Both the position numbers and the translations under genes were made by a program. Of a stretch of DNA of 64,000 nucleotides, positions 22,618 through 61,613 are shown piece after piece. The stretch lies in NCBI RefSeq assembly GCF_000293885.2, contig NZ_CP010945.1, positions 3,554,001 through 3,618,000 on the forward strand. The letters are read 5' to 3'. The notes below the pieces were generated by a model. That model saw only the letters and a program-made list of their open reading frames with translations, was not told the origin of the DNA and searched no databases. Positions within the stretch are counted from its first letter, which is position 1. Each line of letters opens with the position of its first letter. This stretch comes from Pseudomonas fluorescens NCIMB 11764. Its GTDB lineage: Bacteria > Pseudomonadota > Gammaproteobacteria > Pseudomonadales > Pseudomonadaceae.

Positions 22618-23835
22618 ATGAAACGTTGGTCAGTACTTGTTGGATGTTTTCTCGGAATGAGCATCGCGTCGCCGGCCATTCTACTGATTCCGCTGGGCCT
22701 GTTCATGAAGGCGGTGACGGCTGAGTTCGGTTGGTCGCGTACCGATTTTGCGATCATCATTTCCGTCGCGTCCATCTGTAACGCGCTGGTGATGCCACTG
22801 GCTGGCTTCCTCGTTGACCGCTTTGGCGCGCGCCGTGTCGCGCTGGTCGGAACGCTGTTGGGATGTGGCAGCTACATGTGCCTGTCGCTCATTCACTCGT
22901 TCCCTGCGTTCGTTGCGATCACGGCGCTTAGCGTGGCGTTCGGCAATCTGGCGAGTTATCCCGCCTTCCTGTTTTTGACCCAGCGCTGGTTCGATAAACA
23001 CCTGGGGCTGGCCTTTGCGATTACTTCATCGGGCCTTGCGGTCGGCACCGGTGCGTTCTCGTATCTGATTTCGCAAAACATTGCATTGAACGGCTGGCGC
23101 GAGGCGTTTCTGGTGGCTGGGGCGATTGCTCTGGTGATTGGCCTGGTCAATCTGGCCGTGTTTGTCCGTGACAACAAAGGGCCGATTCCGGAGGCCGAAC
23201 GCCGCACTGAAAAAAGCCAGCTGGAGGTGGTCGGTATGACGCTGCGGGAGGCCATGGTCACCCGTGATTTCTGGCTGTATTCGCTGGCCTTTGTACTGGT
23301 GCTGTTTGGCGTCGTGGGGGCCAGCGTGCACTTGCCGGCGATGCTCTCGGATTGGGGCGCATCCGCCAATCAGATCGCCGGCATTGTTGCGGCGGGTTCT
23401 GCCGGGTCGTTGCTCGGGCGACTGTTTGGCGGTGCCTTGCTCGATCATCTGCACACCCGAACCGTCGCGGGGATTTTCCTCACTTGCCAGTTGGTTGGCT
23501 TTCTGATGTTGCTGGACGGGCTGCACTGGGCGCTGGCGGCCAGTTTCCTGATTGGCGCGACCCAGGGTGCCGAGATCGACATTCTCGGTTATTTGATTTC
23601 CCGCCGCTTTGGCAAATTGGCGTATGCGCGGATCTTTGGCAGCGCCTTTTCGGTGACCCTGCTAGGCGCCATTATCGGCCCGTTCGTGTTGGGCATGGTG
23701 TTCGATAAAAGCGGTTCATACCGCACAGCCCTGATGCTGTTTCCGATACTCCCGGTTGTGGCGTTTGGTTTGTTGTGCCTGTCTGCCAAGTCACCCGATC
23801 AACCACAGCGTGTGATCGCGCCTGAAGCCACCTAG
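22618..23835 (+). CDS. MFS transporter, monocarboxylate-porter-like
   Basis: A 405-residue permease with twelve hydrophobic segments. The N-terminus (MKRWSVLVGCFLGMSIASPAI) and FGWSRTDFAIIISV, with GFLVDRFGARRVALVG in loop 2-3, resemble bacterial members of the oxalate/formate and monocarboxylate porter group. ATG at 22618 is chosen because AAGGA lies eight bases upstream; an earlier in-frame codon at 22540 adds a polar, non-membrane extension. It is first gene of the plus-strand island and precedes an OprB-like porin, so the pair likely imports the island's substrate. Substrate unknown. Confidence 0.85.
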   Translation: MKRWSVLVGCFLGMSIASPAILLIPLGLFMKAVTAEFGWSRTDFAIIISVASICNALVMPLAGFLVDRFGARRVALVGTLLGCGSYMCLSLIHSFPAFVAITALSVAFGNLASYPAFLFLTQRWFDKHLGLAFAITSSGLAVGTGAFSYLISQNIALNGWREAFLVAGAIALVIGLVNLAVFVRDNKGPIPEAERRTEKSQLEVVGMTLREAMVTRDFWLYSLAFVLVLFGVVGASVHLPAMLSDWGASANQIAGIVAAGSAGSLLGRLFGGALLDHLHTRTVAGIFLTCQLVGFLMLLDGLHWALAASFLIGATQGAEIDILGYLISRRFGKLAYARIFGSAFSVTLLGAIIGPFVLGMVFDKSGSYRTALMLFPILPVVAFGLLCLSAKSPDQPQRVIAPEAT

Positions 23836-23850
23836 TAAAAACAAGCAATA

Positions 23851-23880
23851 CGGCCACCGTGCGTGCCTGCGCCGTGGCCG
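23851..23880. terminator. hairpin between MFS and porin genes
   Basis: Perfect 7-bp inverted repeat CGGCCAC/GTGGCCG with a 16-nt loop, 15 bp after the MFS stop, not followed by a T run. It may be a weak terminator or RNA-stabilising element within the transcript. Confidence 0.35.
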
Positions 23881-23926
23881 GCTACAACGCTAATGACTGC
23901 CGAAAATAAGAATAAAAGGAAATTGT

Positions 23927-25396
23927 ATGCGGCCCCATCAAAACGGGACGAACCGAATCCGTAAGCATGCGCCTGAATTTGTCCGCGTGACGCTGGCGGC
24001 ACTGTTGGCAATCTGGGCGGCTCACTCGATGAATGCTCGTGCTGAAACAAACCCGACGCCGCAGAACGTTGTGGGTCAGGTTGCCCCGGAATTGAAGCAA
24101 CCGGCTAAAAGTCTTGATCAGGCGGCTACAGAAAAAAACTTGCCCGACAGCCAACTGCTGGGCCACATCATCGAACGCAAAAAGCAGTTCGCGAAGATCG
24201 ATGCACTGGTTGAACACGGGCAATTGACCGAGTTGCCGCCACCGTCGGAAAGCATCCTTGGGGACGCCGGCGGACTTCGCAGTGATCTGGCTGATTACGG
24301 CATTGGTTTCAACATGTTGAACATGACCACCTTCGCCAATAACTACCTCGATCACGACCGCCACAAACCGCAGGCTTATGGCGGGGAGCGTCCAACTTAC
24401 TCGTCAAACCTGCTGCTCGGGTTTACCTACGATCTGGGTCAGGTAGGGCTCGACAACGGACAGTTCATTTTCGGTGTGGGCAGTTACTACTCCAGCTGGG
24501 ATGAAGTGAATCCGTCCTCAAAATTCAGCTACACGCGCATCGCCTACTACCAGAGCCTGTGGGATAAAACCGTCGAATTCAAAATCGGCGTGCTGCCCAA
24601 CGACCTGGAATTTATCGGCCCGTTTACCGGCGGCACGTTGGTGGGCGGCACTCAGGGTTTACAAGCGGTGATCCCGTTTCAAGTGGGTTTGAGCCACGCG
24701 CCGGTGTCCAGCCCGGCAGCCAACTTCACGCTGAATTACGGCAACTTCTATAACAAATTCGGCGTTCAACGCTCTATTAGTCCTGACGGCATGGGGCCGG
24801 AGATCGACCGCCATGCCGGTGAGCTCGACTTGCACGTTGATCACGCCGGCGCGCTGTACATCGATGAGCTCGGCTACAAACGCGCCTCTGCGCCGGGCAC
24901 ACCGTACGCGTGGCTGCGAGCCGGTTACATCCATAACACCTCGGAATACACGCAGTTCCTCAGCAACGAGCGCAGTGATGACAACTACGCCGGCTACGTG
25001 CTGGGCGACTACCAGTTTTACCAATTCGACAGCGCCATCGCTTCCCGTGGCTTGTACGCCGGGTTTACCTGGATGACCGCGCCTGAAGATCGCAACCTGT
25101 TTGACCTGTATTACGGCTTGCGCGTGTTTGCCAAAGGGCCGTTGGACTCGCGTCCATTCGACATGGTGATGCTGGAGTACGGCTACACCAGCTACAGCGA
25201 CGACGCCAATAAAAAGCTCGATACGCTGCATGTGTCCAATGCCGACGACTCGAAATCGACAACGCTCGCTTACAACATGCGCGTTGCCGCCGGCACTTAT
25301 GTACGCGCGGGGCTGAGTTACGTCGAACATCCGGCGTTCAGTCCGGACGTCAAAGACGCCCTCAACCTGCAAGCCAGTTTCACGCTGTTTTTCTAA
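23927..25396 (+). CDS. OprB-family outer-membrane porin
   Basis: A 489-residue protein with a signal peptide (about residues 18-41, VRVTLAALLAIWAAHSMNARA), a helical or coiled periplasmic segment (SQLLGHIIERKKQFAKIDALVEHGQL, broken here over residues 75-100) and a barrel domain ending in ASFTLFF with terminal Phe. LRSDLADYGIGFNMLNMTTFANN is the start of the OprB carbohydrate-selective porin domain. Members pass sugars but also other solutes. AAGGAAA precedes the ATG. It lies between the MFS permease and the CocE hydrolase, both co-directional, so it probably admits the ester or glycoside that the island degrades. Confidence 0.8.
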   Translation: MRPHQNGTNRIRKHAPEFVRVTLAALLAIWAAHSMNARAETNPTPQNVVGQVAPELKQPAKSLDQAATEKNLPDSQLLGHIIERKKQFAKIDALVEHGQLTELPPPSESILGDAGGLRSDLADYGIGFNMLNMTTFANNYLDHDRHKPQAYGGERPTYSSNLLLGFTYDLGQVGLDNGQFIFGVGSYYSSWDEVNPSSKFSYTRIAYYQSLWDKTVEFKIGVLPNDLEFIGPFTGGTLVGGTQGLQAVIPFQVGLSHAPVSSPAANFTLNYGNFYNKFGVQRSISPDGMGPEIDRHAGELDLHVDHAGALYIDELGYKRASAPGTPYAWLRAGYIHNTSEYTQFLSNERSDDNYAGYVLGDYQFYQFDSAIASRGLYAGFTWMTAPEDRNLFDLYYGLRVFAKGPLDSRPFDMVMLEYGYTSYSDDANKKLDTLHVSNADDSKSTTLAYNMRVAAGTYVRAGLSYVEHPAFSPDVKDALNLQASFTLFF

Positions 25397-25461
25397 AGCT
25401 TGATTGACCAACGAATTAGTTGCCCCCGGTGAGTACCGGCGCCAGACAAGGGAGTCTCTCC

Positions 25462-27201
25462 ATGAGCGATACGCAAAAAGTTTACACACCGTCCACGCCA
25501 CTGCCACCTGCCCGAACCGGCTTGTTGACCGCTTTCGAGCCGGGCACGCGGACGCTGGAAAAAGGCTTTCAAATCGCCCCACAGTTTCGCCCGATTCCCG
25601 TCGACATCGTGTTCGAGAAGGACGTCGCGGTGCAGTTGCGCGATGGCGTGACGATTTACGTCGACGTGTTCCGCCCGGCCGGTAGCGAAAAAGTGCCGGT
25701 GATTGTTGCGTGGAGTCCTTACGGCAAAGGGCAGGGCACCTCCGTCAGTGTTATGGGCGTGTTTGGTCTGGTCGGTTTGAACAACAATGTCGTGTCGGGG
25801 CTGGCCAAGTTCGAAGCGCCGGATCCTGCGTATTGGTGCGCCAACGGTTACGCGATCTGCAACCCGGACATTCGTGGCTGCGTTGATTCTGAAGGCAACA
25901 GCGTGCTTTGGGATCGTCAGGACGGTCGCGATTGCCACGACCTGATCAACTGGCTCGCGGAGCAGTCGTGGTGCAGCGGCAATGTCGGCATGAGCGGAAC
26001 CTCGTATCTGGCCGTTTCGCAGTGGTTTACCGCCGCCGAGCAGCCTGCGGCGCTGAAAGCGATCAACCCGTGGGAAGGTGTCAGTGACGTGTACCGCGAC
26101 CTGGTGCTGCGTGGCGGCATGCCCGATCTCGCCTTCGCCGGGCTGTTGCAGAACGGCAGTTTCTTCGGCAAGAACAACAAGGAAGACATTCTTGCTGAAG
26201 CCGCGCGCTACCCGTTGATGAACGAACTTTGGGAAAACAAGATTCCAGAGTTCGAACGCATCAATGTGCCGGCTTACATTGTCGCTAGCTATTCCAACAC
26301 ATTGCACACCGCCGGTACGTTCCGCGGGTGGCGACGAATTGCTTCGCATGACAAATGGCTGCGCATCCACAACACTCAAGAGTGGCCGGATTACTACGAC
26401 GAAGCGAACGTCGAAGACTTGCGGCGCTTCTTTGACCGCTACCTCAAAGGCCAGGCTAACGACTGGGAATCCACCCCGCGCGTGCGTTACGCCGTGCACG
26501 ACTTCGAAGGCGGCGACCAAGTTAACGTCGCGGCTGAAGAGTTTCCGCCACAAGGCGCGGTATCGACCAGGTTCTACCTTGACGGTCGCTCGCGTATGTT
26601 GACCTCCGACGCACCGGCGGCCGATGTCGCGGTGTCCTATGGTGTTGCCAACAATCCGAATGCGGTCTCGTTTATCACCCGTTTCGATCAGGTCACCGAG
26701 CTGGTCGGCTACCCCAAAGCGCACCTTTGGGTAGAAGCCAAAGGCGCCGACGACATGGATTTGTTTGTGCTGGTGCAGAAACTCGATGCCTATGGCACAC
26801 CGCTGCAGCAGTTCACCACGCCTAATCACAGCGCGATGATTCACGATCTCACCGATCACGGCGCGACCATTCTTCGCTACAAAGGCTCGGACGGCCGCTT
26901 GCGTGTCTCGGCGCGGCATCTGGACAAAGCGCTTTCAAGCGTGGACGTGCCGGCCCACAGCTTTGATCGCGTGGAAAAACTCGCTCCGGGCGAGATCGTC
27001 GATGTCGAGATCGACCTGCTGCCGCTCGGCATCAAGTTCTACCCCGGCGAACAGCTGCGTTTCGTCATCAGCTCGCGCAACTTGATGGGAACGATGATGC
27101 CCGGCATCGCCGAATACACCGGCGCCAACAGCGGCGAACACGTGATCCACACCGGCGGTGAACACGCCTCCTACCTGCAACTCCCCGTCAAACTCAGCTG
27201 A
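25462..27201 (+). CDS. CocE/NonD-family serine hydrolase (copy 1)
   Basis: A 579-residue alpha/beta hydrolase of the X-Pro dipeptidyl-peptidase S15 superfamily. The N-terminal domain has VQLRDGVTIYVDVFRPAG, the oxyanion strand YGKGQG, and the nucleophile Ser181 in GNVGMSGTSYLAVSQW. A His in WLRIHNTQEW is the likely triad His. The C-terminal jelly-roll domain (from about 370) ends with HTGGEHASYLQLPV. Such enzymes cleave esters or amides (cocaine esterase, acylases). GGGAG precedes ATG 25462. No signal peptide. It probably does the first hydrolysis of the imported compound. A related gene lies at 62251-64000 at the far end of the island. Confidence 0.87.
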   Translation: MSDTQKVYTPSTPLPPARTGLLTAFEPGTRTLEKGFQIAPQFRPIPVDIVFEKDVAVQLRDGVTIYVDVFRPAGSEKVPVIVAWSPYGKGQGTSVSVMGVFGLVGLNNNVVSGLAKFEAPDPAYWCANGYAICNPDIRGCVDSEGNSVLWDRQDGRDCHDLINWLAEQSWCSGNVGMSGTSYLAVSQWFTAAEQPAALKAINPWEGVSDVYRDLVLRGGMPDLAFAGLLQNGSFFGKNNKEDILAEAARYPLMNELWENKIPEFERINVPAYIVASYSNTLHTAGTFRGWRRIASHDKWLRIHNTQEWPDYYDEANVEDLRRFFDRYLKGQANDWESTPRVRYAVHDFEGGDQVNVAAEEFPPQGAVSTRFYLDGRSRMLTSDAPAADVAVSYGVANNPNAVSFITRFDQVTELVGYPKAHLWVEAKGADDMDLFVLVQKLDAYGTPLQQFTTPNHSAMIHDLTDHGATILRYKGSDGRLRVSARHLDKALSSVDVPAHSFDRVEKLAPGEIVDVEIDLLPLGIKFYPGEQLRFVISSRNLMGTMMPGIAEYTGANSGEHVIHTGGEHASYLQLPVKLS

Positions 27202-27305
27202 TCCTGGTGTGCGCCGTGCTCTTCAAAGGGCAGGGCGTACCTCACCTGTGGCGTTGAAAAGCCTGTATCGATCGCGCCATGGATTCCTTTCAGGAGAAAA
27301 ATCCA

Positions 27306-28196
27306 TTGATCCTTATCACCTCGGCTAACGGTAACCAGGGCAAACGGCTGGTGCCCAAACTGCTCGCGTCCGGCCATCAAATACGGGCTTGCGTCAGAAC
27401 CGAATCCTCCGCCGAGCAACTGCACAAGCTCGGCGTACACCAAGTGCGGGTAGGCGATCTCGCCGATCCGGCGTTTATTGCCCAAGCCATGAAGGGCGTC
27501 AAAAGCGTGTACCACATCGGCCCGACGCTGCATCACGACGAACGCGCGATGGGCTTCGCCATGATTGATGCCGCCAGAGCAGAGGGCGTCGAGCATTTCG
27601 TGTTCAGTTCTGTGCTGCACGCCATCGCCAGCGACTTGATCCAGCATGAAATCAAGCGCGACATTGAAGAACACCTGCTGTCCTCAGGACTCGAATACAC
27701 CATTTTGCAACCCGCCAATTACATGCTGCCAACACGACTGAAAGCGGTGTTCGAGGAAGGCGTGTTCCGCTTGGCGTGGTCGCTGGACAGACGCCAGTCG
27801 ATGGTCGATCTGGAAGACTTTACGGACGTGGTTGCGTTGGTGTTGTCTGATCGCAAACGTCACGGCGGGGCCACCTACGAGCTGGTCGGCCCCGGACGGT
27901 TCACTGCGCACGAGATTGGCGCGGTTGCTTCGCAAGTGGTGGGGCGCGAGATCAAAGTCGAACGCTTCGATGTCGAGGTGTTTGTCCGCGAACGTTTCGG
28001 CAATCTGGAGCCCGAAGCGCTTCAACATATGTTGCGGATGAACCTGGCGATCGCCAGGCATTACAGTAACCACGACTTTGTCGGTAATTCCAATGTGCTG
28101 GCCTTTCTATTGGGCCGCGCGCCGACGGCGTTCGAAACGTTTGTCCGCAGGGAATACGCGCGTTTCAAGGAAGCCCAGAAAACGCTTTCTAATTGA
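27306..28196 (+). CDS. NmrA-like NAD(P)-binding protein
   Basis: An atypical SDR of the NmrA/HSCARG type. The Rossmann motif is ILITSANGNQGKRLV, later blocks are GVKSVYHIGPT, VEHFVFSSVLH and YTILQPANYM. There is no YxxxK pair, as usual for NmrA-like members, which are reductases or redox sensors. A TTG start at 27306 (296 residues) is preferred: AGGAG is nine bases upstream and the protein then begins right at the first strand. An in-frame ATG at 27279 has no ribosome site and would add nine residues including that AGGAG. Between the hydrolase and a broken chemoreceptor; a role in reduction of a pathway ketone or enone is possible. Confidence 0.8.
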   Translation: MILITSANGNQGKRLVPKLLASGHQIRACVRTESSAEQLHKLGVHQVRVGDLADPAFIAQAMKGVKSVYHIGPTLHHDERAMGFAMIDAARAEGVEHFVFSSVLHAIASDLIQHEIKRDIEEHLLSSGLEYTILQPANYMLPTRLKAVFEEGVFRLAWSLDRRQSMVDLEDFTDVVALVLSDRKRHGGATYELVGPGRFTAHEIGAVASQVVGREIKVERFDVEVFVRERFGNLEPEALQHMLRMNLAIARHYSNHDFVGNSNVLAFLLGRAPTAFETFVRREYARFKEAQKTLSN

Positions 28197-28474
28197 GGCG
28201 CTCGACGTATTTCTGTTCCCTGAGCCGCTCGTGCAATGCGACGGCTCACCTGTAAATCCAAGGCTATTAGCGTTTCAACTGACGCCCATCTTTATTGGCC
28301 ATTGGCCGAGCCACATGCCTACGCGATAGGCTCTGAACGTACGAAATGCAGCGCCTCTGAATCCAAAAAAACAACAACAAGAAGCCCTCATATGCTCAGT
28401 TTGCCTTGGTGTTTTCTGCCGTTTCCGTTCGGGTTCAGATTTGCCTCGCCTGCGTGCCAAGGTGCGTTCCGGTG

Positions 28475-30405
28475 ATGGGCCGCGCACTCGGCAACCTGTC
28501 GGTTGGCAGCAAACTGTGGCTGGGTTTTGGCTTGGTGTTGTTGTCGACATTAGCCGTAGCGGCGACTGCGTTTTACGCCTTCAACGTACTCGAAACCCGC
28601 GCCAGGAAGATGAACGATGTGGCCGCCGTTGAGTCGTTGATTCTGCAAGCGCAGGTCGCGGTCAAGGCGTTCGGCCTGAACCTGGCCGAGGACGAAGCCA
28701 AAAAGGTCGCCGGGCTTACCGCCGAGCTGGTGGCGTTGCTGGAAAAATCGCAAATGGACAGCGGGCAGGGTGCCTCCAAAGAAGCCGCCCACTATTATCT
28801 CGCCCAGTTCGAACGGTATGCCCAGGCCCTGCGAGATGCCCGCGAGGCACGCCTGCGCATGCAACAGTTGGCGCAAGTGGTGGGCGAGCGTTTCACCGTG
28901 GTAATGCTCGATCAACTCGACGCGGTCAACTTTCTGGCTTCGCGGACCCAGCCGGCGGACGCGGTACGCATGCTGCAGCTGGAACAAGCCTCCACGCTGC
29001 GCGACAAATTGGCGAACCTGCGTGACAGCGAACTCTATTTCACTCTGCAAGGCAGCACCGAAGAGCGCAACGCCTGGGAAGCGCGAGTTATTGAACTGCG
29101 CTCTTACATGGAAAACCTCGAACTGCGCCTCGAAGGCGCCGAGCGCGAATCGCTGACCCAGGCTCGTACAGCGCTGGATGAATACCGCGCCGCGTTCAAT
29201 GGTTACGCCGCGAGCCGCGAGCAAACCAGCGACAGCCAGGCGGCAATGAACGTCGCCGCTGACAAAGTCAGTCAATTGCTCAGCGAAGTACGCGCCACAC
29301 AGGTTCAAGCCTCGCAGGCAATGGGTCAGAGGGTATCGCGGCTGCTAGCGGGGATGGTGCTGTTGGCGCTCGCCCTTGGCATCGGGGCGAGTCTGTTGAT
29401 TCGTCACTTGATACTGCAACCGCTGCGCCAAGCGGTTGAATTGACGCGCCGTGTAGCGTCAGGCGATCTCAGCGCGCAGATCGATGCTGCAGGACGCCGC
29501 GATGAGCTGGGCCAGTTGCTCGGCAGCGTCGGCGTCATGCTGGAAAGTTTACGCGGGCTGATTGGTCGGATTGGCCAAGGCGTCGGGCAGTTGAACCACG
29601 CCGCCGACAGTCTGGTGCAGGTCACCGAGCGCACGCGTCAAGGCGTCGAATCGCAGCGTGAAGAAACCGAGCTGGCGGCCACCGCGATGCAACAGATGGC
29701 CGCAACGGCCCAAGACGTTACGCGCAATGCCAGCCAGACCCGCCACGCCGTCGAACAGGCCAATGATCAAGCGCGCAAAGGCGAAGCACTGGTGCATCAG
29801 GCGACCAGCAAGATCGGTCACCTGCCGTAGAAATGAGCGGCTGTTCCGACGCCATGGGCTCATTGCTCAACGAGAGCGCAGCGATCGGCAAGGTACTCGA
29901 CGTGATCAGTGCCCTGGCCGGGCAGACCAATCTGCTCGCCCTCAATGCAGCAATTGAAGCGGCACGGGCCGGCGAAAACGGTCGTGGTTTTGCTGTAGTC
30001 GCCGATGAGGTACGCAACCTGGCCCGGCGCACCCAAACCTCCACTGACGACATCGCCGCCATCATTCAACAGTTGCGAATCGTCGCTGAGCACGCCGCCA
30101 GCCGCTTGCAGGGCAGTCAAGTGCTGACCGGCGAAAGCGTGGTGCTTGCCGCACAAGCGTCACAAGCGCTGCAGGAAATTGCAGCGGCGGTGTCGACGGT
30201 CGAGCAGATGAGTCAGCAGATCGCGGCGGCGGCAGAACAGCAGAGTGCCGTGGCAGAACAGGTTGGAGAAAGCATGCAACGGGTACGTGCAGTGTCTGAG
30301 CAAAGCACTGCTGCCAGCGGCTTGCTCGACGCCTCGGTGCGCGGCCTGGAACAGGTGGGCGGCGCGCTCAACGCAGCCGTTGGTGGTTTTCGCACGGTGT
30401 CTTGA
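28475..30405 (+). pseudogene. methyl-accepting chemotaxis protein, frameshifted
   Basis: The first part (28475-29830) encodes a receptor N-half: membrane helix (KLWLGFGLVLLSTLAVAATAFYAF), a long helical sensor resembling the HBM double-bundle type, a second helix (LLAGMVLLALALGIGASLLI), HAMP (LQPLRQAVELTRRVASGDLS) and the start of the signalling domain, ending at TAG 29828-29830. The remainder continues in another frame (to 30405) with the hairpin tip [20 protein letters not shown]. Adding one G after position 29824 restores [14 protein letters not shown] and a single 643-residue receptor. So this is a recent single-base deletion or a sequencing error. Otherwise it would sense a substrate of the island. 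Confidence 0.88.
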
Positions 30406-30495
30406 AACAGGTTCATTTGCAGTTATGAGGCTGAGTACGGCGGCACGTTCTGTCGGTTCATCTCTAAGCAAACAACAACAAGAGTGGAGGCAGAT

Positions 30496-36329: not shown

Positions 36330-36340
36330 AGGAGATGACC

Positions 36341-37198: not shown

Positions 37199-37289
37199 CA
37201 CCCAAGCGTTTTCAAAAAAGGTGCCGCTGTGCAGAAGCGCCAAGGGCACTGCTGCGCCGCGATCACCACAAACAAGACAGGAAACCGAC

Positions 37290-45822: not shown

Positions 45823-45862
45823 TCACCGCGTTGCGTTGGCGACCCCACAATAAGGAATGTTT

Positions 45863-47381: not shown

Positions 47382-47392
47382 GGCGAACTCTG

Positions 47393-47520
47393 TTGTGAGG
47401 GGTTTATCCCCGACGGGCTGCACAGCAGCCGTGAATCAGCCACCGCAGTTTTTCAGAGACATCGCATTGGCAGGGTTTGGGTCTGCTTCGCAGCCCATCG
47501 GGGATAAATCCCCTCGCTAC
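47393..47520. repeat. REP-type inverted pair (REPIN-like)
   Basis: GAGGGGTTTATCCCCGACGGGCTGC at the left (47397-47421, given in parts) recurs inverted at the right as GCAGCCCATCGGGGATAA-ATCCCCTC (47490-47515). Arms of about 28 bases frame a 68-nt spacer. Each arm itself can fold (GGGG..CCCC). This is the form of Pseudomonas extragenic palindromes spread by RAYT proteins. It separates the LysR-ended operon from the DUF1302 module. Confidence 0.72.
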
Positions 47521-47985
47521 AATTTTCTGCGCCAACCTGCCATCTCTGCCAGTCCTGCGGTTCTTGCGAGTCCTGCCAAGTCCTGCCAAATTCGATCAGA
47601 TTTCCTGTGTATTTCCCGCTTGTCTGCACGCCTATTTAGCGCTCGCAGCTGTGTCTCTTTGCGCCTTTTCCCAAAGAATCCGCGTCTTCATTGCACCATC
47701 AGTTTTCTGGCTGCGGTGTAGCGGGTTTTATCATTGTTCAGGCCGAAAAGGGCCTGCATATACTCGGGCCAACACAGAAACACCGTCACGGCTGGGAACA
47801 ATAAAACCATCTCAAACCAAGACTCTGTGTTGCCTGCACATGATTTGTCCGTGCATGAATTCAACCGGTACCACAACTTCATGGGAGGTTTTTCTTGTGG
47901 GTCGCTGTGACTGGCCAACGTTCATGTAATCGGCCTGATCAGCAACCGGAGTTCATGCGTCACACAATCCCTCTAGGTAGCAAAA
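47521..47985. other. intergenic leader of the DUF1302 module
   Basis: No gene is supported. The stretch is less GC-rich than its flanks and carries near repeats (AGTCCTGCGGTTCTTGCGAGTCCTGCCAAGTCCTGCC region, 47548-47586, with the unit AGTCCTGC three times). It probably contains the promoter and leader for the genes from 47986. Confidence 0.4.
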
Positions 47986-49695: not shown

Positions 49696-49707
49696 GGGAA
49701 AACAATA

Positions 49708-51072: not shown

Positions 51073-51116
51073 AGACTGTATCTGGCTTGAACGATGAACC
51101 TGATGAGATGACCCGT

Positions 51117-52229: not shown

Positions 52230-52279
52230 CGACATCCACCTGCACGCTCACTCGACGCGCCTTATAAGAGTCCAATGAC

Positions 52280-54754: not shown

Positions 54755-54798
54755 CCCATCAACCTGATTTTTCACACCACCTAAAATAAGGAAACACC

Positions 54799-55272
54799 AT
54801 GGATCGCTATATCAATCGCCTGTTTCACGTGTGCATCACCGTCGCTGATATCGATGCTGCACTTGAGTTCTACTGTGGCGTGCTCGGCCTTGAGTCCATC
54901 GGCAAACTGCGCCACGAAAGGGCGCCCGGTGAAATCCTTGGTTTCCCGAATCAGATCATTGAAATCCACGCTGACCACCTCGTCGGCAAAGACAAGGACA
55001 ACGCCACCGTTATCGACCTGATCGAGTTCGTCGAACCAAAAACCATGGTCAACAAAAACGCTTCCGCGCCGCTGAACCACGCTGGCATCAACCGTATGGC
55101 GTTTGGTGTAGACGACACCGATGCCATTCATGAGAAGCTCAAGGCGCGCGGCGACATCGTTTTCCTGTGCGAGCCGCAAGTGGTGATCGCGCCAACCGGC
55201 GGCAAATTCAAGATCCTGACGTTTAAAGACCCGTTCGACAACGTTCTGGAAGTGATTGAGTACTGCAAGTAA
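54799..55272 (+). CDS. single-domain VOC protein (glyoxalase/dioxygenase fold), copy A
   Basis: A 157-residue VOC module pair. It starts MDRYINRLFHVCITVADIDAALEFYCGVLGLE (first half), has the second beta-alpha unit at about 90 (NHAGINRMAFGVDDTDAI) and closes KILTFKDPFDNVLEVIEY with a potential metal-binding Glu. Candidate metal ligands are His10, Glu in IIEIHAD, His in LNHAGIN and Glu in VLEVIEY. It is related to the protein at 56343 (same MNxLxxxLxHVCITVxDxDxALxFY start). Starting 44 bp after the RND gene, it begins a cassette of small enzymes. Could be a lyase, isomerase or epimerase. Confidence 0.82.
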   Translation: MDRYINRLFHVCITVADIDAALEFYCGVLGLESIGKLRHERAPGEILGFPNQIIEIHADHLVGKDKDNATVIDLIEFVEPKTMVNKNASAPLNHAGINRMAFGVDDTDAIHEKLKARGDIVFLCEPQVVIAPTGGKFKILTFKDPFDNVLEVIEYCK

Positions 55273-55317
55273 CCCGTGTTTGTAGAATTTATTACTCGGA
55301 AAAATCGGAGAATTTAA

Positions 55318-55842
55318 ATGAGTGTCACACAAGACAAGTCCGAAATTATTGATGTCATCAACCTGTATGGCGTCGCGTTGGACGCTCACGCCTGGGACTT
55401 GCTGGACGAGGTGTTTACCGAGGATGCCCACGCTGATTTCGGGCCGGCCGGCGCGGTCTGGAAGTCGGTCGGTGCGCTGAAGTTCGCCTTCAAGGACTTC
55501 CACGAAACACTGACCAATCACATGCACACCATGACCGGTTCCTGCGTACACGTGGAGGGCGATACGGCCTACGCGCTGACCTACGGCGACTGGCTGCTGT
55601 CCCGTGATTCGGCAGTGGGTGGCCCTGACTGGGTTGGCCGTGGCTGGTACGACGATATCCTGGTGCGCACCGATAAGGGCTGGCGCATCAGCAATCGCGT
55701 GTGCCGACTGATTTCCTGGACAGGCAACCCGAATGTGCCTGAACCCGCGTATGAACAGCATCCAGTGATGACCACCCACACGCTGCGCAGTCATCGCGAA
55801 GAAGGCAAGGTCCGGTTCTTCGAAGCCATCGCCAAAAAGTAA
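55318..55842 (+). CDS. SnoaL/NTF2-like family protein
   Basis: A 174-residue NTF2-like protein: EIIDVINLYGVALDAHAWDLLDEVFTEDAHADFG (early part, residues 9-42), HMHTMTGSCVHVEGDTAYALTYGDWLL with the His/Asp pocket positions, and the closing strand KGWRISNRVCRLISW. The family includes scytalone dehydratase-like and steroid-isomerase-like enzymes. The Asp in LDAHAWDLLD and His in NHMHTMTG are plausible catalytic residues. Between VOC and EthD-like genes. Likely a dehydratase, isomerase or cyclase on a pathway intermediate. Confidence 0.8.
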   Translation: MSVTQDKSEIIDVINLYGVALDAHAWDLLDEVFTEDAHADFGPAGAVWKSVGALKFAFKDFHETLTNHMHTMTGSCVHVEGDTAYALTYGDWLLSRDSAVGGPDWVGRGWYDDILVRTDKGWRISNRVCRLISWTGNPNVPEPAYEQHPVMTTHTLRSHREEGKVRFFEAIAKK

Positions 55843-55864
55843 ACAGCTAATAGCAACGACGGAT

Positions 55865-55891
55865 CCACTTCCGATTGTTTGACGGAAGTGG
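55865..55891. terminator. hairpin after NTF2-like gene
   Basis: Perfect 9-bp stem CCACTTCCG/CGGAAGTGG with a 9-nt loop, 22 bp after the stop. It is followed by TCTGGGGTTTCT, too weak for a confident intrinsic terminator; may attenuate or protect the transcript. Confidence 0.5.
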
Positions 55892-55966
55892 TCTGGGGTT
55901 TCTATTGCCCGAAATTCCATTGTGGAGCTCTGGCGAAGAGTAACTTTTTATATTGGAAACCTAATC

Positions 55967-56323
55967 ATGAATGACCAGAGCGTTATCTGGACAGTGGGCA
56001 TCAATTGCTCAGCGGAAGACGAAGACAAGTTCAATGTTTGGTACGACGACGTGCATGTACCGATGTTGATGCAGGGCGACTGCGTGAGAAAAGTCAGCCG
56101 CTTCAAACTGGCCGAGGAGACCTATCACGTCGGCGTAACCACCCAGCCGTGCCCGACGTACCTGACGATTTATGAATTCGACAGCCAGGAAAAATTCGAA
56201 GACTGGATGAAGAGCCCGTCGCGCATTGAAGCCGGTGAAGACAAGACAAAGACCTGGGGCGACAAGGTGTATGACGTCCAATGGGCAACGCGCTACGACC
56301 TCACTAACACCTGGAACGGTTAA
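55967..56323 (+). CDS. small EthD-like dimeric alpha/beta-barrel protein
   Basis: A 118-residue protein with the ferredoxin-like (dimeric alpha/beta barrel) pattern: strand SVIWTVGINC, helix EDKFNVWYDDVHVPMLMQG, strand VRKVSRFKL, strand PTYLTIYEFDS, helix EKFEDWMKSPSRIEAGED. The WYDDVHVPML segment resembles the WY-x-x-x-H-P motif of EthD and related small monooxygenases or cyclases. Start at 55967 is chosen since GGAAAC lies nine bases upstream; an upstream in-frame codon (55922) lacks one. It may be an auxiliary oxygenase, cyclase or decarboxylase. Function is not known. Confidence 0.72.
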   Translation: MNDQSVIWTVGINCSAEDEDKFNVWYDDVHVPMLMQGDCVRKVSRFKLAEETYHVGVTTQPCPTYLTIYEFDSQEKFEDWMKSPSRIEAGEDKTKTWGDKVYDVQWATRYDLTNTWNG

Positions 56324-56342
56324 TTAAAGGGCGGTAAAAGTC

Positions 56343-56834
56343 ATGAACGCACTGGTTAAAAAACTGCTTCACGTTTGCATCACCGTCCCGGACGTTGATC
56401 AGGCCCTCAAGTTCTACCGCGACGTACTGGGTTTTGTTTCGACCTTTGAAACCAGAACCGATGAAGCGGATGGCCCGCTGCTGGGTTTCGCCGAAGATGA
56501 GATCAGCATTTACGCCCATCACATCCTTACCGCAGGTGCCGATGCCAAGCACGCCACCGAAATCAACCTGATCGAGTACACCAAACCGGCAACGATCATC
56601 GGCGATGGCCCGTATGACTTGATGAATCAGGTCGGGATTACCCGTCTTGCACTGCTGGTTGAAAACACTCGCGAAGCCTTTGAAAAGATCAGCGCGTACG
56701 AAGGTGTTGAAGTGGTTTGCGAGCCCAAAGACATCATTATCCGCAAGCCTGGGCAGAACCTGACGATGACCTGGTTCAGCTTCAAAGATCCTTACGGCGT
56801 GTTCATCACCATCGCCGAACCACCAAAAGCTTAA
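56343..56834 (+). CDS. single-domain VOC protein, copy B
   Basis: A 163-residue VOC protein related to copy A: MNALVKKLLHVCITVPDVDQALKFYRDVLGF at the start, EINLIEYTKPATIIGDGPYDLMNQVGITRLALLV in the middle (residues 75-108, read in parts) and MTWFSFKDPYGVFITIAE at the end. The metal-type residue His10 is kept, but the His at the start of the second module in copy A (LNHAGIN) reads MNQVGIT here and the terminal Glu differs, so the two may have different or no metal. It overlaps no neighbour; 19 bp separate it from the EthD-like gene. Role unknown. Confidence 0.82.
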   Translation: MNALVKKLLHVCITVPDVDQALKFYRDVLGFVSTFETRTDEADGPLLGFAEDEISIYAHHILTAGADAKHATEINLIEYTKPATIIGDGPYDLMNQVGITRLALLVENTREAFEKISAYEGVEVVCEPKDIIIRKPGQNLTMTWFSFKDPYGVFITIAEPPKA

Positions 56835-56909
56835 GCAGCTCCGTTCAATATCGCGGTTCAGTTTGGGTCGGATCGCCTCATTCCAGTTCAGGAAAATCCA
56901 GGAGATAAC

Positions 56910-57785
56910 ATGCAGATCGATGTTCTGGTGGACGTAAAAACCACCATCGGTGAGGGCCCTGTATGGGATGTGCAGGAGCAGCGCCTGTACTGGATCGACG
57001 TCGTCGGCGGTCGCGTTTATCGCTGCACCGCTGACGGGCGCGAGGTGCGTACGTGGGAAATGCCCGACACCATCGGTTCGATGGCGCTGCGCCGTAATGG
57101 CGGTGCCATTGTGGCGCTGGGTTCGGGGTTTCACTTCCTCGACTTCGACACGGGTGAGACCGAGCTGATCGTCAATCCCGAGGCTGACAAGCCGCATAAC
57201 CGTTTGAATGACGGCAAGGTCGACGCCCGTGGGCGTTTCATCGTCGGCAGCATGGACACCCGCGAGGGCTTCGCTGATGGCACGCTGTTTCGCATCGACC
57301 CGGATCTGTCGGTGCATAAGCTCGACTCAGGTTTTGCGATTTCCAACGGGCCGTGCTGGAGCCCCGACGGTTCAACGTTCTATTTCTCCGATACTTTTTC
57401 CGGTGAAATCTGGGCGTATGACTACGACCTCGAAACCGGCGGCATCGCCAATCGTCGCACCTTCACCAAAGCAGGTTTTACCGAGACGACAACCACTGAC
57501 GGCTCCACGGTCGATGCCGAAGGCTACCTCTGGAATGCTCAGGTCTACGCCGGCAAGCTGTGCCGCTTTGCGCCGGACGGCAGTCTCGATCGGGTTATCG
57601 AAATGCCGGTGAAGAAGGTCACCAGCGTCAACTTCGGCGGGCCTGAGATGGACACGTTATTTGTCACTTCGATGGCCAAGCCACCGTTGCCGCGCTATCC
57701 GGGTGACAACGTGATGCGCGGGAGTCTTTTCGCGGTTCGTGGTTTGGGTGTGCAAGGGCTGCCAGAGCCGCGTTTTGGTGGCTGA
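56910..57785 (+). CDS. SMP-30/gluconolactonase-family lactonase
   Basis: A 291-residue six-blade beta-propeller of the SMP-30/gluconolactonase/LRE-like family. The metal-binding residues are visible in the standard places: Glu in IGEGPVWD (about residue 15), Asn in HNRLNDGKVD (about 98), Asn in ISNGPCWSPDG (about 147) and Asp in TTTDGSTVDAEG (about 195). CAGGAGA precedes the ATG. Such enzymes hydrolyse lactones with a divalent metal. In this cassette it probably opens a lactone made by an SDR or present in the substrate. Confidence 0.89.
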   Translation: MQIDVLVDVKTTIGEGPVWDVQEQRLYWIDVVGGRVYRCTADGREVRTWEMPDTIGSMALRRNGGAIVALGSGFHFLDFDTGETELIVNPEADKPHNRLNDGKVDARGRFIVGSMDTREGFADGTLFRIDPDLSVHKLDSGFAISNGPCWSPDGSTFYFSDTFSGEIWAYDYDLETGGIANRRTFTKAGFTETTTTDGSTVDAEGYLWNAQVYAGKLCRFAPDGSLDRVIEMPVKKVTSVNFGGPEMDTLFVTSMAKPPLPRYPGDNVMRGSLFAVRGLGVQGLPEPRFGG

Positions 57786-57856
57786 ATACGAGTCCGTCGA
57801 ACGCGATTTCGGAGCTGCTTCGAAATTGACATTTCCACCGTTACAGGATCGTTGCG

Positions 57857-58648
57857 ATGCCTGAGTTCAAAGACAAAGTCGTACTGATTTCAGGAACCGG
57901 CGGGCGTATGGGGCGGATAGCTGCCCAAATGTTTGCCAGAGAAGGCGCGAAAGTACTTGGCTGCGATGTCGCAATCCAGCGATCTGAAGAAACCTGCAGG
58001 CTGGTGAGAGAGGAGGGTGGAGATTTTTTTTCGCTGGAACCTCTCGATCTGGCCAGCCCCATTGATGCACAACGATGGATAGATGAAGCCATATCGCGCT
58101 GGGGGCGAATCGATGTCCTCTATAACAATGCCGCAGGTGTCAGCATTGCCGCTTTTGAAGATGCGTCGATTGAGCATTGGAATTACACCATTCGCAACGA
58201 GTTGACGATCGCCTACGTGGCAGCTCGCGCGGTTTGGCCGCAAATGCTGAAACAGCAAAAAGGAGTAATAGTCAACGTGGCGTCGATTGCCGGCCATCTT
58301 GAGCTATCCGGTTTTCCTGCAGTTGCGCATGGTGTGACTAATGCAGGCGTACACGCACTTACGCGTATGCTCGCCGCCCAAGGCGCACCACACGGCATAC
58401 GTTCGGTAAGTATCAGTCCAGGGCTGATTGCCGATCCAGACGCGCAGCCCTCTCCAGCGCTTGATGAATACGGCTTACCGACAGCGCGACAACTGTGGAA
58501 ACACGCGGCACTGGGCCGCCCGGCCCGAGCTGAGGAGATTGTTGAAGCCGCTCTGTTTCTTGCATCCGACAGAGCGTCGTATATCACTGGAACCGATATA
58601 GCCGTAGACGGTGGAATGTCCAGCATCATCTGGAAATCAGAAGCGTGA
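57857..58648 (+). CDS. SDR-fold protein with altered catalytic residues
   Basis: A 263-residue short-chain dehydrogenase/reductase fold. The nucleotide motif is ISGTGGRMGRIAAQMF, NNAAG is intact (about residue 93) and VNVASIAG holds the usual Ser. Where classical SDRs have YxxxK (YSASKA), it reads AHGVTNAGVHALTR, giving His in place of Tyr and Asn in place of Lys. Thus normal hydride-transfer catalysis is doubtful. The C-terminal ITGTDIAVDGGMS is typical of the family. It is followed by a normal SDR at 58703, so it may be a partner or have taken another function. Confidence 0.85.
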   Translation: MPEFKDKVVLISGTGGRMGRIAAQMFAREGAKVLGCDVAIQRSEETCRLVREEGGDFFSLEPLDLASPIDAQRWIDEAISRWGRIDVLYNNAAGVSIAAFEDASIEHWNYTIRNELTIAYVAARAVWPQMLKQQKGVIVNVASIAGHLELSGFPAVAHGVTNAGVHALTRMLAAQGAPHGIRSVSISPGLIADPDAQPSPALDEYGLPTARQLWKHAALGRPARAEEIVEAALFLASDRASYITGTDIAVDGGMSSIIWKSEA

Positions 58649-58702
58649 GCAATTTACGCTGACCATTTTGCAATGAATCCCGAGATGCTTGAGGTGAAAA
58701 CT

Positions 58703-59446
58703 ATGCAAACCCATAAAAATCGCGTTGCCGTTGTTTCGGGCGCCGCCAAGGGCATTGGCCAGGAACTGGCGATTCAACTGGCACAACGAGGCGCCGCTCT
58801 GGCGCTGCTGGACATCGCCGATCTTTCGCAAACCTGCGAGCTGATTGAGGAGGCGGGCGGCCAAGCCATTGCCATTCATTGTGATGTCAGCCAGGAAACC
58901 GACTGGATCGCTGCCGGCGAGGTCGTCAAAAACCACTACGGTCGCTGCGACATTTTGGTCAACAACGCCGGGATCTACCCCAATGTGCACTTCGATGAGC
59001 TGGACTTCAAAACCTGGCGGCGCACCTTTGAGATCAATCTCGACAGCATGTTTTTGAGCGCAAAAGTGTTCGTGCCGATGATGCGCGCTAATGGCTGGGG
59101 GCGCATCGTCAACGTCTCTTCGACATCCATCGTCACCAACGCCGTCGGCGTCAGCCATTACATGGCAAGCAAGATGGGCATCATTGGCTTCACCCGAGGA
59201 TTGGCAAATGACCTGGGCAAGGACTTCATTACCGTCAATTCGCTCGCGCCTGCACTGACCGCGACACCCGGCACCAGCCATATACCGGACGTCGTACGCG
59301 ATAACATTGTCAATTTACAGGCCTTCAAGAGAATGGCGGTGCCCAACGATATTGTCGGGCCCATGCTGTTTCTGACCAGCGAGGACGCACAGTTCGTGAC
59401 GGGACAGGTGCTGGCTGTCGATGGCGGCATGATGAAAACCTGCTGA
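58703..59446 (+). CDS. short-chain dehydrogenase/reductase (classical)
   Basis: A 247-residue classical SDR, with cofactor motif VVSGAAKGIGQELA (about residues 10-23), an acidic residue after strand 2 (LDIAD) pointing to NAD(H), NNAG (NNAGIY), active-site Ser in VNVSSTS and YMASK (Tyr-Lys about 153-157). The closing VTGQVLAVDGG is standard. Start at 58703 is chosen since GAGGTG is eight bases upstream; ATGs at 58673 and 58685 lack sites. It should oxidise an alcohol or reduce a ketone in the island pathway. Confidence 0.9.
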   Translation: MQTHKNRVAVVSGAAKGIGQELAIQLAQRGAALALLDIADLSQTCELIEEAGGQAIAIHCDVSQETDWIAAGEVVKNHYGRCDILVNNAGIYPNVHFDELDFKTWRRTFEINLDSMFLSAKVFVPMMRANGWGRIVNVSSTSIVTNAVGVSHYMASKMGIIGFTRGLANDLGKDFITVNSLAPALTATPGTSHIPDVVRDNIVNLQAFKRMAVPNDIVGPMLFLTSEDAQFVTGQVLAVDGGMMKTC

Positions 59447-59469
59447 ACGGCGTCATCCTCCGGTTCATG

Positions 59470-59500
59470 GACGATCGGCAAGCGCTGTCTTGCCATCGTC
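59470..59500 (+). terminator. hairpin after the SDR pair
   Basis: Stem GACGATcGGCAAG/CTTGCC-ATCGTC (12 bp with one bulged base) and a 6-nt loop, 23 bp after the SDR stop. The following TCCCTCGTTAAA is a poor T run; a moderate or factor-dependent terminator ending the cassette is likely. Confidence 0.45.
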
Positions 59501-59665
59501 TCCCTCGTTAAACCCCTTCTTTCGCCTGTCCGGAACCGTTGATTTTGCACCTGTTCATCGAGGTTGGATCAGGGCTGGCAAGCCATTCCCGATATGGATA
59601 GAGTACGAGCCACCTATAAATTGCTGACGGTGTTCAGCAAGCAATAACAAGAGACGATTCCGCGC

Positions 59666-60646
59666 ATGATGCTCCCCAAGTTGATGCACATCCGCATGTT
59701 TGTTGCCGTGTACGAGGAAGGCTCCTTCACTGTCGCTGCCAGCCGCGAAGGGCTGGGACAGTCCGGCGTGTCTGCGCATGTTCGGCAGTTGGAAAATCAA
59801 TTGGGCGTGCGGCTGTTCGCCCGCGATCGCACGATTATTCCCACGCCCGCCGGGCATGCCTATTACCAGCAATGTGTGCAATTGCTGCGTCAGCACGAAA
59901 GCGCCTGCAACGCAGTTGGTCATCGTGCAGAGCCATCGGACGGTTCGCTGCGCATAGGCATGATTCCGACCATGACGCGTTCGGTATTCAGCCGCGCACT
60001 GCTGGCTTTTGAAGCCGCTTATCCCAACGTTTCAGTTCACCTTACCGAAGGCGCAGGCAGCGTGATTGCGACCGCAGTACGTCGTGGCATGCTGGATTTC
60101 GCCATCACCCAGCGCATGTCTTACGACGGCGGTGGCGGGGCGGTCGGGCTGAGTACATCGTTGTTCACGAGAACGCCAGCGTTTCTGGTGTCCTCACCCG
60201 ACTCAGGCTTGCCGCACTGCGAACCGGTGCGCCTCAGCGACATCAATGACTTGCACCTGGTACTGCCGATCGGGCGACGACCGCTGCTGGAGCAGTATCT
60301 GATCGACCACAAGGTGCAAGTCGTGCAGCGTCTCAACTGGTTCGAGTCCATGCTGGGCGCCATGGATCTGGTGCGCTCCAGCCACTGGGCGGCGATTATT
60401 TCCGGCCTGTTTATCGCCGACGATCTGCGGCGCAAGCGCTTCACACTTAACCCGCTGGCCGATCCAATTCTCTGGGACGAAATGTTGTTGGTGGAGCCGG
60501 CGCGCAAACCCTTGTCGACGATTGCCCAGAACTTCATCGAGTTTTTGAAGAAGGCCACCGAAGACATCAACGCGATACCGATCCGTATCGCCCATGGCGA
60601 GCATTCGTCAAACGCAGACTTCAATGAGATATCGCGCCATGAATGA
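59666..60646 (+). CDS. LysR-type regulator, tandem copy 1
   Basis: A 326-residue LysR protein: HTH in HIRMFVAVYEEGSFTVAASREGLGQSGVSAHVRQLENQL (residues 8-47, read in parts), then effector domain (GSLRIGMIPTMTRSVFSRALL). It is similar along its length to the next gene (MFVAVYExxSFTxAAxRE, LFxRxxxxxPTxAGxxxYQxC, TPAFLVSS in both), indicating a tandem duplication. The start may be 59666 or the adjacent ATG 59669. Last eight bases overlap the next start. It probably controls the cassette upstream, or the divergent hydrolase unit. Confidence 0.9.
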   Translation: MMLPKLMHIRMFVAVYEEGSFTVAASREGLGQSGVSAHVRQLENQLGVRLFARDRTIIPTPAGHAYYQQCVQLLRQHESACNAVGHRAEPSDGSLRIGMIPTMTRSVFSRALLAFEAAYPNVSVHLTEGAGSVIATAVRRGMLDFAITQRMSYDGGGGAVGLSTSLFTRTPAFLVSSPDSGLPHCEPVRLSDINDLHLVLPIGRRPLLEQYLIDHKVQVVQRLNWFESMLGAMDLVRSSHWAAIISGLFIADDLRRKRFTLNPLADPILWDEMLLVEPARKPLSTIAQNFIEFLKKATEDINAIPIRIAHGEHSSNADFNEISRHE

Positions 60647-61613
60647 CTCGCTGCCCGGTTTGCGGGAAATGCAAATGTTCGTGGCGGTGTACGAGACGCG
60701 ATCGTTCACGGCGGCGGCAGCACGTGAGTTTGCCACTCAGTCGGGCATCTCCCAGCACATCAAGCAGATCGAAGAAATGCTCGGCGTGCAGCTGTTTGAC
60801 CGACAGAAAGGTGTAGAGCCTACCGCAGCAGGCACCTCGTTTTACCAGCATTGTCTGGAAGTGGTGGCGGCCAATTCCAGGGCACTGCAGGCGCTGGATA
60901 CCTTCGAGCAGGGCCTGTCCGGCGAAGTCCGTTTTGGGGTGACACCGACACTGGCGACCTATCAGCTCGCGCCGGCCTATCTGCGCCTGATGTCGCAGAA
61001 CCCCAATGCCTCAATCGCGGTGATCGACGCCCCCAGTAACATGCTGATCGACATGGTCCGGGCCGGCGAACTCGACTTTGCGATCATTCCGTCGATTTCG
61101 CAGCCACCGGCGGATCTGTCCACGACGGTATTTGCCGCCACGCCTGCGTTTCTGGTCTCGTCAATCACCCATGACAGTGGCTTTGAGCATGGCGAACTCA
61201 TTGAGCTCGACGAGCTGACGGGGTTCAAGCTGCTGGCACCTGACAGTCGTGAGTATGCGCAGTGGATCGGTTCACAGCTGGACGCTCTTTCGGGGCCGGG
61301 CCCCTGTTACCAGCTCGATGCGGTGCTGGCCACGCTCGACCTGATCAGGCAGAGCGAGTGGATGGCGATTCTTCCCGGTCTGCTATTCGTGCACGATTTC
61401 AGTGTTGAACCAGCAGAGCGAGACTTCAGGATCAACCCCTTTGCCGGTGCCGGCCTGACGCTGGAGTTGCTGTTGGTGCAGCCGGCGCGGCCAACGCCTT
61501 CAGCGCTGATGATGGCGGCGATCAGTGCAATCCAACAGGTGGCCCAGGAGCACATTCAGTTGCTCAGCCGTTTCCGGTTTGGCAACCAGCCGGCCGTTCG
61601 CAGGTTGCAATAA
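60639..61613 (+). CDS. LysR-type regulator, tandem copy 2
   Basis: A 324-residue LysR protein beginning at ATG 60639, inside the end of copy 1 (ATGAATGA: start and stop overlap by eight bases), so translation is coupled. HTH: MQMFVAVYETRSFTAAAAREFATQSGISQHIKQIEEML (residues 11-48, read in parts); effector domain GEVRFGVTPTLATYQLAPAY. Upstream ATG 60624 is possible but GAG is not placed for it. Two coupled paralogs could form a heterodimer or respond to two ligands. Downstream, a minus-strand unit converges at 61672. Confidence 0.9.
   Translation: MNDSLPGLREMQMFVAVYETRSFTAAAAREFATQSGISQHIKQIEEMLGVQLFDRQKGVEPTAAGTSFYQHCLEVVAANSRALQALDTFEQGLSGEVRFGVTPTLATYQLAPAYLRLMSQNPNASIAVIDAPSNMLIDMVRAGELDFAIIPSISQPPADLSTTVFAATPAFLVSSITHDSGFEHGELIELDELTGFKLLAPDSREYAQWIGSQLDALSGPGPCYQLDAVLATLDLIRQSEWMAILPGLLFVHDFSVEPAERDFRINPFAGAGLTLELLLVQPARPTPSALMMAAISAIQQVAQEHIQLLSRFRFGNQPAVRRLQ

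Follow-up and report, generated by a model that had tools for sequence, protein, structure and literature searches.

A rare and probably transferable catabolic gene cluster in Pseudomonas fluorescens NCIMB 11764 carrying an HPCD-like dioxygenase with Gln at the His200 position

The window analysed here is a 64,000-nt stretch of the Pseudomonas fluorescens NCIMB 11764 genome (G000:C1:3554001–3618000; genome size 6,998,154 bases). It holds a real, rare and transferable catabolic cluster that probably specifies one pathway with an exchangeable lower part. Families were scanned with Pfam and NCBIfam, and the genes are given below in their order along the window (percentages refer to matches in relatives).

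22618–25396, + strand: MFS transporter and OprB-type porin (Pfam MFS_1, OprB; 80–96% in 5/5 Pseudomonas relatives)
25420–27201, + strand: CocE/NonD-type hydrolase 1 (Pfam Peptidase_S15 and PepX_C; TIGR00976 above cut-off; GTSY nucleophile motif)
27279–28196, + strand: NmrA-family reductase (Pfam NmrA; 66–92% in 7 relatives)
28406–30405, + strand: methyl-accepting chemotaxis protein (MCP), frameshifted (Pfam HAMP and MCPsignal on two open reading frames (ORFs) in different frames)
30484–33186, + strand: 2-oxoacid dehydrogenase E1, TIGR03186 type (Pfam, NCBIfam, tree position outside the AceE clade)
33272–34558, + strand: dehydrogenase E2 with one lipoyl domain (Pfam 2-oxoacid_dh, Biotin_lipoyl, E3_binding)
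34569–36329, + strand: dihydrolipoyl dehydrogenase E3 with its own lipoyl domain (Pfam; TIGR01350 above cut-off)
36326–37198, + strand: itaconyl-CoA-hydratase-like protein (itaconyl-CoA hydratase 8khg, 284 bits)
37221–38456, + strand: acyl-CoA dehydrogenase (Pfam)
38467–39660, + strand: class III CoA-transferase (Pfam CoA_transf_3; no NCBIfam equivalog cut-off reached)
39657–40514, + strand: CitE-like (citramalyl-CoA-lyase-like) lyase (acyl-CoA lyase beta chain 9nzb/8khl, 224 bits)
40677–42197, + strand: HpaB-family flavin-dependent phenol hydroxylase (Pfam HpaB_N, HpaB; Thermus enzyme 2yyg, 320 bits)
42271–42807, + strand: carboxymuconolactone-decarboxylase-family (CMD) protein (Pfam CMD)
42829–43848, + strand: HPCD-like ring-cleavage dioxygenase, Gln at the His200 position (Pfam, NCBIfam, alignment, structure model)
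43922–44893, + strand: flavin reductase with a C-terminal regulator-like part (Pfam Flavin_Reduct; NF045919 206.5 against a cut-off of 340)
44890–45822, + strand: fumarylacetoacetate-hydrolase-family (FAH) protein (Pfam FAA_hydrolase)
45857–46477, + strand: glutathione transferase (GST) family protein (Pfam GST_N)
46494–47381, + strand: LysR-type regulator, ORF from 46437 (Pfam HTH_1, LysR_substrate)
47986–54754, + strand: DUF1302, DUF1329, YCF48-like and MMPL genes, a putative hydrophobe-uptake module (Pfam)
54799–57785, + strand: VOC, SnoaL_4, EthD/DUF4286, VOC and SMP-30 genes (Pfam)
57857–59446, + strand: two short-chain dehydrogenases (SDR), variable between relatives (Pfam adh_short)
59666–61613, + strand: two LysR-type regulators (Pfam; 69–98% in 8 relatives)
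61672–62226, − strand: SnoaL_4 protein 2, outside the earlier coordinates (Pfam; 78–96% in 8 relatives)
62251–64000, − strand: CocE-type hydrolase 2, 784 aa, crossing the window end (full ORF in L104; TIGR00976 above cut-off)

All 32 Pfam-supported genes between 22618 and 61613 lie on the + strand, as the initial annotation had stated (the frameshifted MCP is counted once, and the family scan of this interval covered the plus-strand ORFs). Its short gaps and several overlaps were also confirmed: most genes overlap or are separated by <220 bp, the single exception being ~600 bp (47382–47985), where a 150-aa ORF (47477–47929) belongs to no family and has partial matches (39–69%) in only 4/11 relatives. 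The families it named were right in substance, with the acyl-CoA dehydrogenase, NmrA reductase and MCP omitted. The right-hand end that it placed at 61613 has to be moved, as the minus-strand SnoaL gene and the second CocE gene (62251–64605 in window-equivalent numbering) recur with the cluster in 8/11 relatives; the other three are two short contigs of metagenome-assembled genomes (MAGs) and a truncated Variovorax set. Start codons at 43922 (rather than 43664) for the flavin reductase and at 34569 for E3 are the more likely ones.

A single scan of a species-genome collection for the HPCD-like protein, covering close relatives, returned 11 loci (five Pseudomonas, Aestuariicella, Polaromonas, Pelomonas, a Rhizobacter MAG, a betaproteobacterial MAG and, at 70%, Variovorax). 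The gene is rare in the genus, being detected at 1e-100 in 5/398 genomes, own included (the others are G107, G178, G151 and G332). In a phylum sample, 19/398 genomes match at 1e-80, again own included, the other 18 at 36–50% identity. Co-travel was judged in the 8/11 relatives with enough contig (the five Pseudomonas, Aestuariicella, Polaromonas and Pelomonas), leaving out the two short MAG contigs and Variovorax. The HpaB block is present in 8/8, as are the CocE, SnoaL, VOC, EthD and SMP-30 genes, while the DUF1302 module and the hydratase/CoA-transferase/lyase genes are each found in 7/8. E1 lies nearby in 7/8, across a contig break in GM21 and as a contig-end fragment in Pelomonas, a remnant in Aestuariicella being uncounted. 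The gene set shared by all eight spans two classes, and across genera (Polaromonas, Aestuariicella etc.) identity to the window is 86–89% for HpaB and 81–86% for the dioxygenase.

The initial annotation had proposed a single pathway, against which occurrence of the blocks apart in most genomes would have spoken. The aromatic block and the small-enzyme cassette are together in every judgeable relative, and the DUF1302, C5 and E1 genes each in all but one, and this part of the proposal is largely supported; the co-occurrence of HPCD-like, CitE-like and dehydrogenase genes in other Pseudomonas is likewise seen in 5/5 relatives (in GM21 over two contigs). Other parts do not: E1-E2-E3 occurs alone in one genome (G059), E1 is not that of a plain pyruvate dehydrogenase, of the relatives only the Pseudomonas were found to carry the porin, MFS and MCP genes, the CocE gene beside the porin is so placed only in 14P, and the SDR genes vary.

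The five Pseudomonas share the order MFS/OprB, E1-E2-E3, C5 genes, HpaB block, DUF1302 module, cassette, and then SnoaL and CocE. CocE hydrolase 1 has 66–95% matches in 8 relatives, several of them at the right flank, where the four Pseudomonas other than 14P carry a 79–81% copy. The NmrA gene is relocated in UYIF39, the GM21 cluster is split over its two contigs at E2/E3/hydratase, the first SDR gene is absent from 14P and Irchel 3E13 and the second from Irchel 3E13. MCP is a single open stretch of 658–721 codons in 5/5 Pseudomonas relatives, and no MFS/OprB genes were found in the stretches of the non-Pseudomonas relatives. In Polaromonas, ~57 kb of one contig carry the HpaB block, the DUF1302 module and the VOC/SnoaL/EthD/SMP-30 genes, together with the C5 genes, which are accompanied by electron-transfer-flavoprotein genes, and E1-E2-E3, accompanied by a thiamine-pyrophosphate-enzyme gene; SnoaL, the two LysR genes and four CocE genes are there as well. 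The Pelomonas contig carries both the aromatic block and the cassette, along with the DUF1302 module and CocE genes, and an E1 match begins 26 bases past the end of the GST match, at the contig end. On the Aestuariicella contig (40.6 kb) the aromatic block and cassette are joined by CocE genes and the C5 quartet. A Variovorax E1 on the same contig as the truncated cluster of that genome was considered and left uncounted: it lies 33 kb from the end of L012, near HsaA-like genes and with no adjoining E2/E3 match.

The aromatic block resembles the HpaB/HpaC/HpaD pathway in that a two-component flavin hydroxylase precedes a dioxygenase with the type I extradiol fold and a protein of the FAH family. 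Despite this presence of HpaB-, HpaC- and HpaD-like families, an ordinary 4-hydroxyphenylacetate (homoprotocatechuate) pathway is very improbable. HpaB scores 387.5 bits with TIGR02309 and the dioxygenase 300.2 with TIGR02295 (HpaD), both under the curated cut-offs (480.2 and 321.4). HpaE-, HpaH- and HpaI-type genes were absent from those scanned in the block, and GST, CMD, esterase and C5-CoA genes stand in place of the Hpa lower pathway. Compared with the Thermus enzyme, HpaB keeps Arg100 and His142, with Phe for Tyr104 and, beside an alignment insertion, Ala/Ala for Ser197/Thr198; the carboxylate site of the Thermus enzyme would be among the changed positions. Compared with HPCD, the dioxygenase keeps the metal ligands His155, His214 and Glu267 as well as Arg243, His248 and Tyr257. 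His200 is replaced by Gln, Trp192 by Phe and Asn157 by Gln (a Variovorax fragment has Arg at position 157). In HPCD, His200 is the acid-base residue. Both enzymes appear to keep their main catalytic residues and to differ at substrate-side positions. Arg293 of HPCD was dropped as a substrate marker because Gln is aligned with it in the 14 HpaD-like control rows.

Gln occupies the His200 position in 12/12 cluster rows, compared with five Leu and one His in six plasmid relatives and 14 His, two Leu and two Gln in the 18 non-own phylum hits. In the dioxygenase tree the seven Leu rows (7/7 Leu) form one group, which with the cluster rows and the His-bearing L043 makes up one 19-row set; branching within the set is not firm because of long-branch warnings, and Aestuariicella falls among the Pseudomonas rows. 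The members of the Leu group (L038–L042, L084, L085) come from plasmids of Rhizobium, Rhodococcus, Cupriavidus, Paraburkholderia and Sphingobium and from two further genomes. In five plasmid regions a CMD-family gene lies within 10 kb of the Leu-type dioxygenase gene, and it adjoins the HPCD-like gene in 3/6 plasmid relatives examined. As a guide to the substrate, the plasmid relatives gave no anchor (101 records, all <60% identity; six regions opened, two of them unannotated).

A structure model of the dioxygenase (predicted local distance difference test, pLDDT, 84.1) has the HPCD fold; a model from the single sequence was useless (pLDDT 35.3). The H200Q variant of HPCD came first in the Foldseek list, which is not counted as evidence because the HPCD entries were tied. 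This fold, together with the metal-ligand set of the catechol-type HPCD, stands against cleavage of a hydroquinone-type ring, of the kind carried out by LinE/PcpA or gentisate enzymes, in which GST and FAH would act as in the gentisate/homogentisate route and release a methylfumarate directly. That chemistry would be a sub-variant of the pathway proposed below. It is unlikely, although the GST and FAH genes lie close behind the dioxygenase gene, Gln replaces His200, and no semialdehyde dehydrogenase family was found among the genes scanned in the block.

Upstream of the aromatic block, the cluster holds an Ich-like hydratase, a Ccl-like lyase and a class III CoA-transferase. With the acyl-CoA dehydrogenase these resemble bacterial itaconate degradation (ich/ict/ccl, as in the P. 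aeruginosa operon) and are ordered as in a second itaconate-type set of the same genome, at ~C1:4796573–4801973. They differ from that set in sequence (identity 48% for the hydratase, 75.5% for the dehydrogenase, 65% for the transferase and 47% for the lyase), in being embedded in an aromatic cluster and in having no MmgE/PrpD gene, an extra gene of the second set. The second-set hydratase reaches 380 bits on 8khg, compared with 284 for the cluster protein, which makes the second set the better itaconate candidate and the cluster set a diverged copy; the cluster lyase scores 166.1 with the RipC model (cut-off 375). The block described initially as C5-CoA lysis has the stated families, and by sequence comparison is refined to a diverged second itaconyl-CoA hydratase/citramalyl-CoA lyase set.

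The three dehydrogenase genes had been described as a complete pyruvate dehydrogenase. E1, E2 and E3 are indeed all present, though E1 is of the TIGR03186 type and not plain AceE: it passes both TIGR03186 ('AKGDH_not_PDH'; 1589.5 bits, cut-off 1408.3) and aceE TIGR00759 (1471.7, cut-off 859.9), and in the E1 tree 15 rows including the window separate from six AceE-type rows with 100/100 support. E2 falls slightly under the TIGR01348 cut-off (551.0 against 552.1 bits). The genome has three E1 genes, the cluster copy, a 68% paralog near a PALP-family gene and a 55% AceE-type gene. In being an AceE-like homodimeric E1 above the TIGR03186 cut-off the cluster protein resembles the MdeB-type 2-oxobutyrate dehydrogenase E1; it differs in having its own E2 and lipoyl-bearing E3 and in its place in a catabolic cluster. 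Both pyruvate and 2-oxobutyrate are possible substrates.

Trees of the lower genes disagree with the co-travel of the cluster. The Polaromonas cluster E1 groups with own and Variovorax paralogs, apart from the Pseudomonas cluster E1, and the Pelomonas fragment is 76% identical to a Variovorax E1 and 65% to the window E1. In the hydratase tree the Aestuariicella copy, flagged as a long branch, pairs with the second copy of the window genome (100/100) and the Polaromonas copy falls with beta copies. The approximately unbiased (AU) test rejected a single cluster clade across genera for E1 (p-AU 6e-97), for the hydratase (2e-8; Aestuariicella alone 5e-4, Polaromonas alone 7e-3) and for the lyase (2.4e-4; Aestuariicella alone 0.036, Polaromonas alone 2e-4), with p values that flatter since the groups were chosen after the trees had been seen. 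The CoA-transferase tree resolves only the Pseudomonas cluster clade, and the acyl-CoA dehydrogenase of the Pseudomonas clusters groups with Variovorax and Pelomonas copies. The same lower functions, of different ancestry, are found beside the same ring-cleavage genes in different genera. We read such non-orthologous C5 and E1 genes as repeated recruitment, which in turn hints that a methyl-branched C5 acid and a 2-oxoacid are what ring cleavage releases.

On balance, and with moderate confidence, we favour the view that the cluster is a horizontally mobile catabolic regulon acting on a single phenol, one that is hydrophobic and probably carries an ester group; that the substrate is such an ester is, like every reaction below and their order, what we infer. 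Uptake would use the DUF1302/DUF1329/YCF48/MMPL module, CocE-type hydrolases would remove the ester groups, and the SnoaL, VOC, EthD, SMP-30 and SDR proteins may trim the product. HpaB with the flavin reductase would then hydroxylate the phenol, and the HPCD-like dioxygenase, with its altered second sphere, would open the ring. Isomerisation and C–C hydrolysis by GST and FAH could give a methyl-branched C5 dicarboxylate (of the mesaconate, itaconate or methylsuccinate kind), to be converted by CoA transfer, dehydrogenation and hydration to citramalyl-CoA and split into acetyl-CoA and pyruvate. The TIGR03186-type dehydrogenase would oxidise pyruvate or 2-oxobutyrate. Lichen depsides, tocopherols, lignans and alkylphenols were weighed as substrates, and nothing here tells them apart.

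Several observations weigh against this proposal, in addition to the long branch of the Aestuariicella hydratase and the choice of AU groups after the fact. In-place displacement would account for the tree conflict as well, although function seems to be kept under either recruitment or displacement. At the E-value used, no hydratase or lyase copy besides those of the cluster was found in the five Pseudomonas relatives, so that the cluster pair may serve free itaconate. The Pelomonas cluster contig is without C5 genes, which lie on other contigs, and the 40.6-kb Aestuariicella contig has no DUF1302 module and, for E1, only a decayed 29-residue stretch between the lyase and HpaB genes (L007:7349–7435; 86–90% like the Pseudomonas cluster E1). 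In G059, E1-E2-E3 matches of 96/86/85% are accompanied within 60 kb by no window gene other than MCP relatives, and the genus-sample search gave no dioxygenase match in that genome.

The G059 trio (L053; G059:C1:2545000–2564999) sits among IS66 transposase, integrase-core and phage-integrase genes. This isolated occurrence is what would be expected if two or three pathways merely shared an island, an aromatic/ester route being accompanied by a carried-along itaconate-type C5 operon and by a 2-oxoacid dehydrogenase serving other substrates. E1 relatives of 65–74% are widespread in the rest of the genus sample (54 listed matches), the window genome has its second itaconate-type set far from the cluster, and lower modules are missing from some carriers' contigs, all of which fit such an island. 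We consider it rather unlikely, as non-orthologous copies of the same two functions adjoin the same ring-cleavage genes in several genera.

Under the single-pathway reading, a more specific idea can be put forward tentatively, with some doubt: in a candidate undescribed pathway, an HPCD-like enzyme with a naturally occurring His200Gln change would open a substituted ring in a way unlike His200 enzymes and release a methyl-branched C5 acid. The modules for C5-CoA and for the 2-oxoacid dehydrogenase would have been assembled beside it independently in several lineages. If so, the Leu-at-200 group (7/7 rows) would represent another type of enzyme that lacks the acid-base His. Xylenol and methylgentisate routes end in citramalate, use other oxygenase families and are not known to include esterases or a hydrophobe-uptake module. 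What they share with the proposal is the idea that the methyl group of a ring becomes part of a C5 acid, which is split into acetyl and pyruvate units. The cluster offers a natural setting for a residue that has been engineered in HPCD (H200Q, H200N, H200E and H200C, according to PDB titles) and a cross-genus gene set in which to seek the substrate. The pairing of ring-cleavage genes with non-orthologous citramalyl-CoA and 2-oxoacid-dehydrogenase genes would predict the kind of product ahead of the substrate.

To the left of the cluster lies a second aromatic block:

14279–20585, − strand: MFS, BBP2 porin, MhpA-type hydroxylase, extradiol-family dioxygenase and FAH genes (family scans)

This block resembles hcdABC of 7-hydroxycoumarin degradation and lies outside the conserved cluster. 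It was rejected as part of the core, with 94–96% matches only in 14P, partial ones (39–58%) in Variovorax and weaker or absent ones elsewhere; Polaromonas has 45–60% relatives of it 20–40 kb beyond its E1. SMP-30 gave no substrate anchor either: relatives of 63–67% occur in 15/199 genus genomes, and the 5/15 examined lie among SDR and MFS genes.

Farther right, outside the window, follow a third CocE gene (48% to the second), two TetR genes and a phage-integrase gene (L044:5178–6248, − strand), the last a possible island border just right of the cluster. Among further conserved ORFs, in the matches listed, the two TetR genes were confirmed as such and the remaining ORFs were taken for shadows. 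The second TetR has its own match in 6/8 genomes, while in Polaromonas and Pelomonas both TetR genes match one gene. The CocE proteins at L104:452–2806 (−) and L044:1590–3851 (−) have an N-terminal extension of ~200 residues, without a Pfam match, before the S15 domain.

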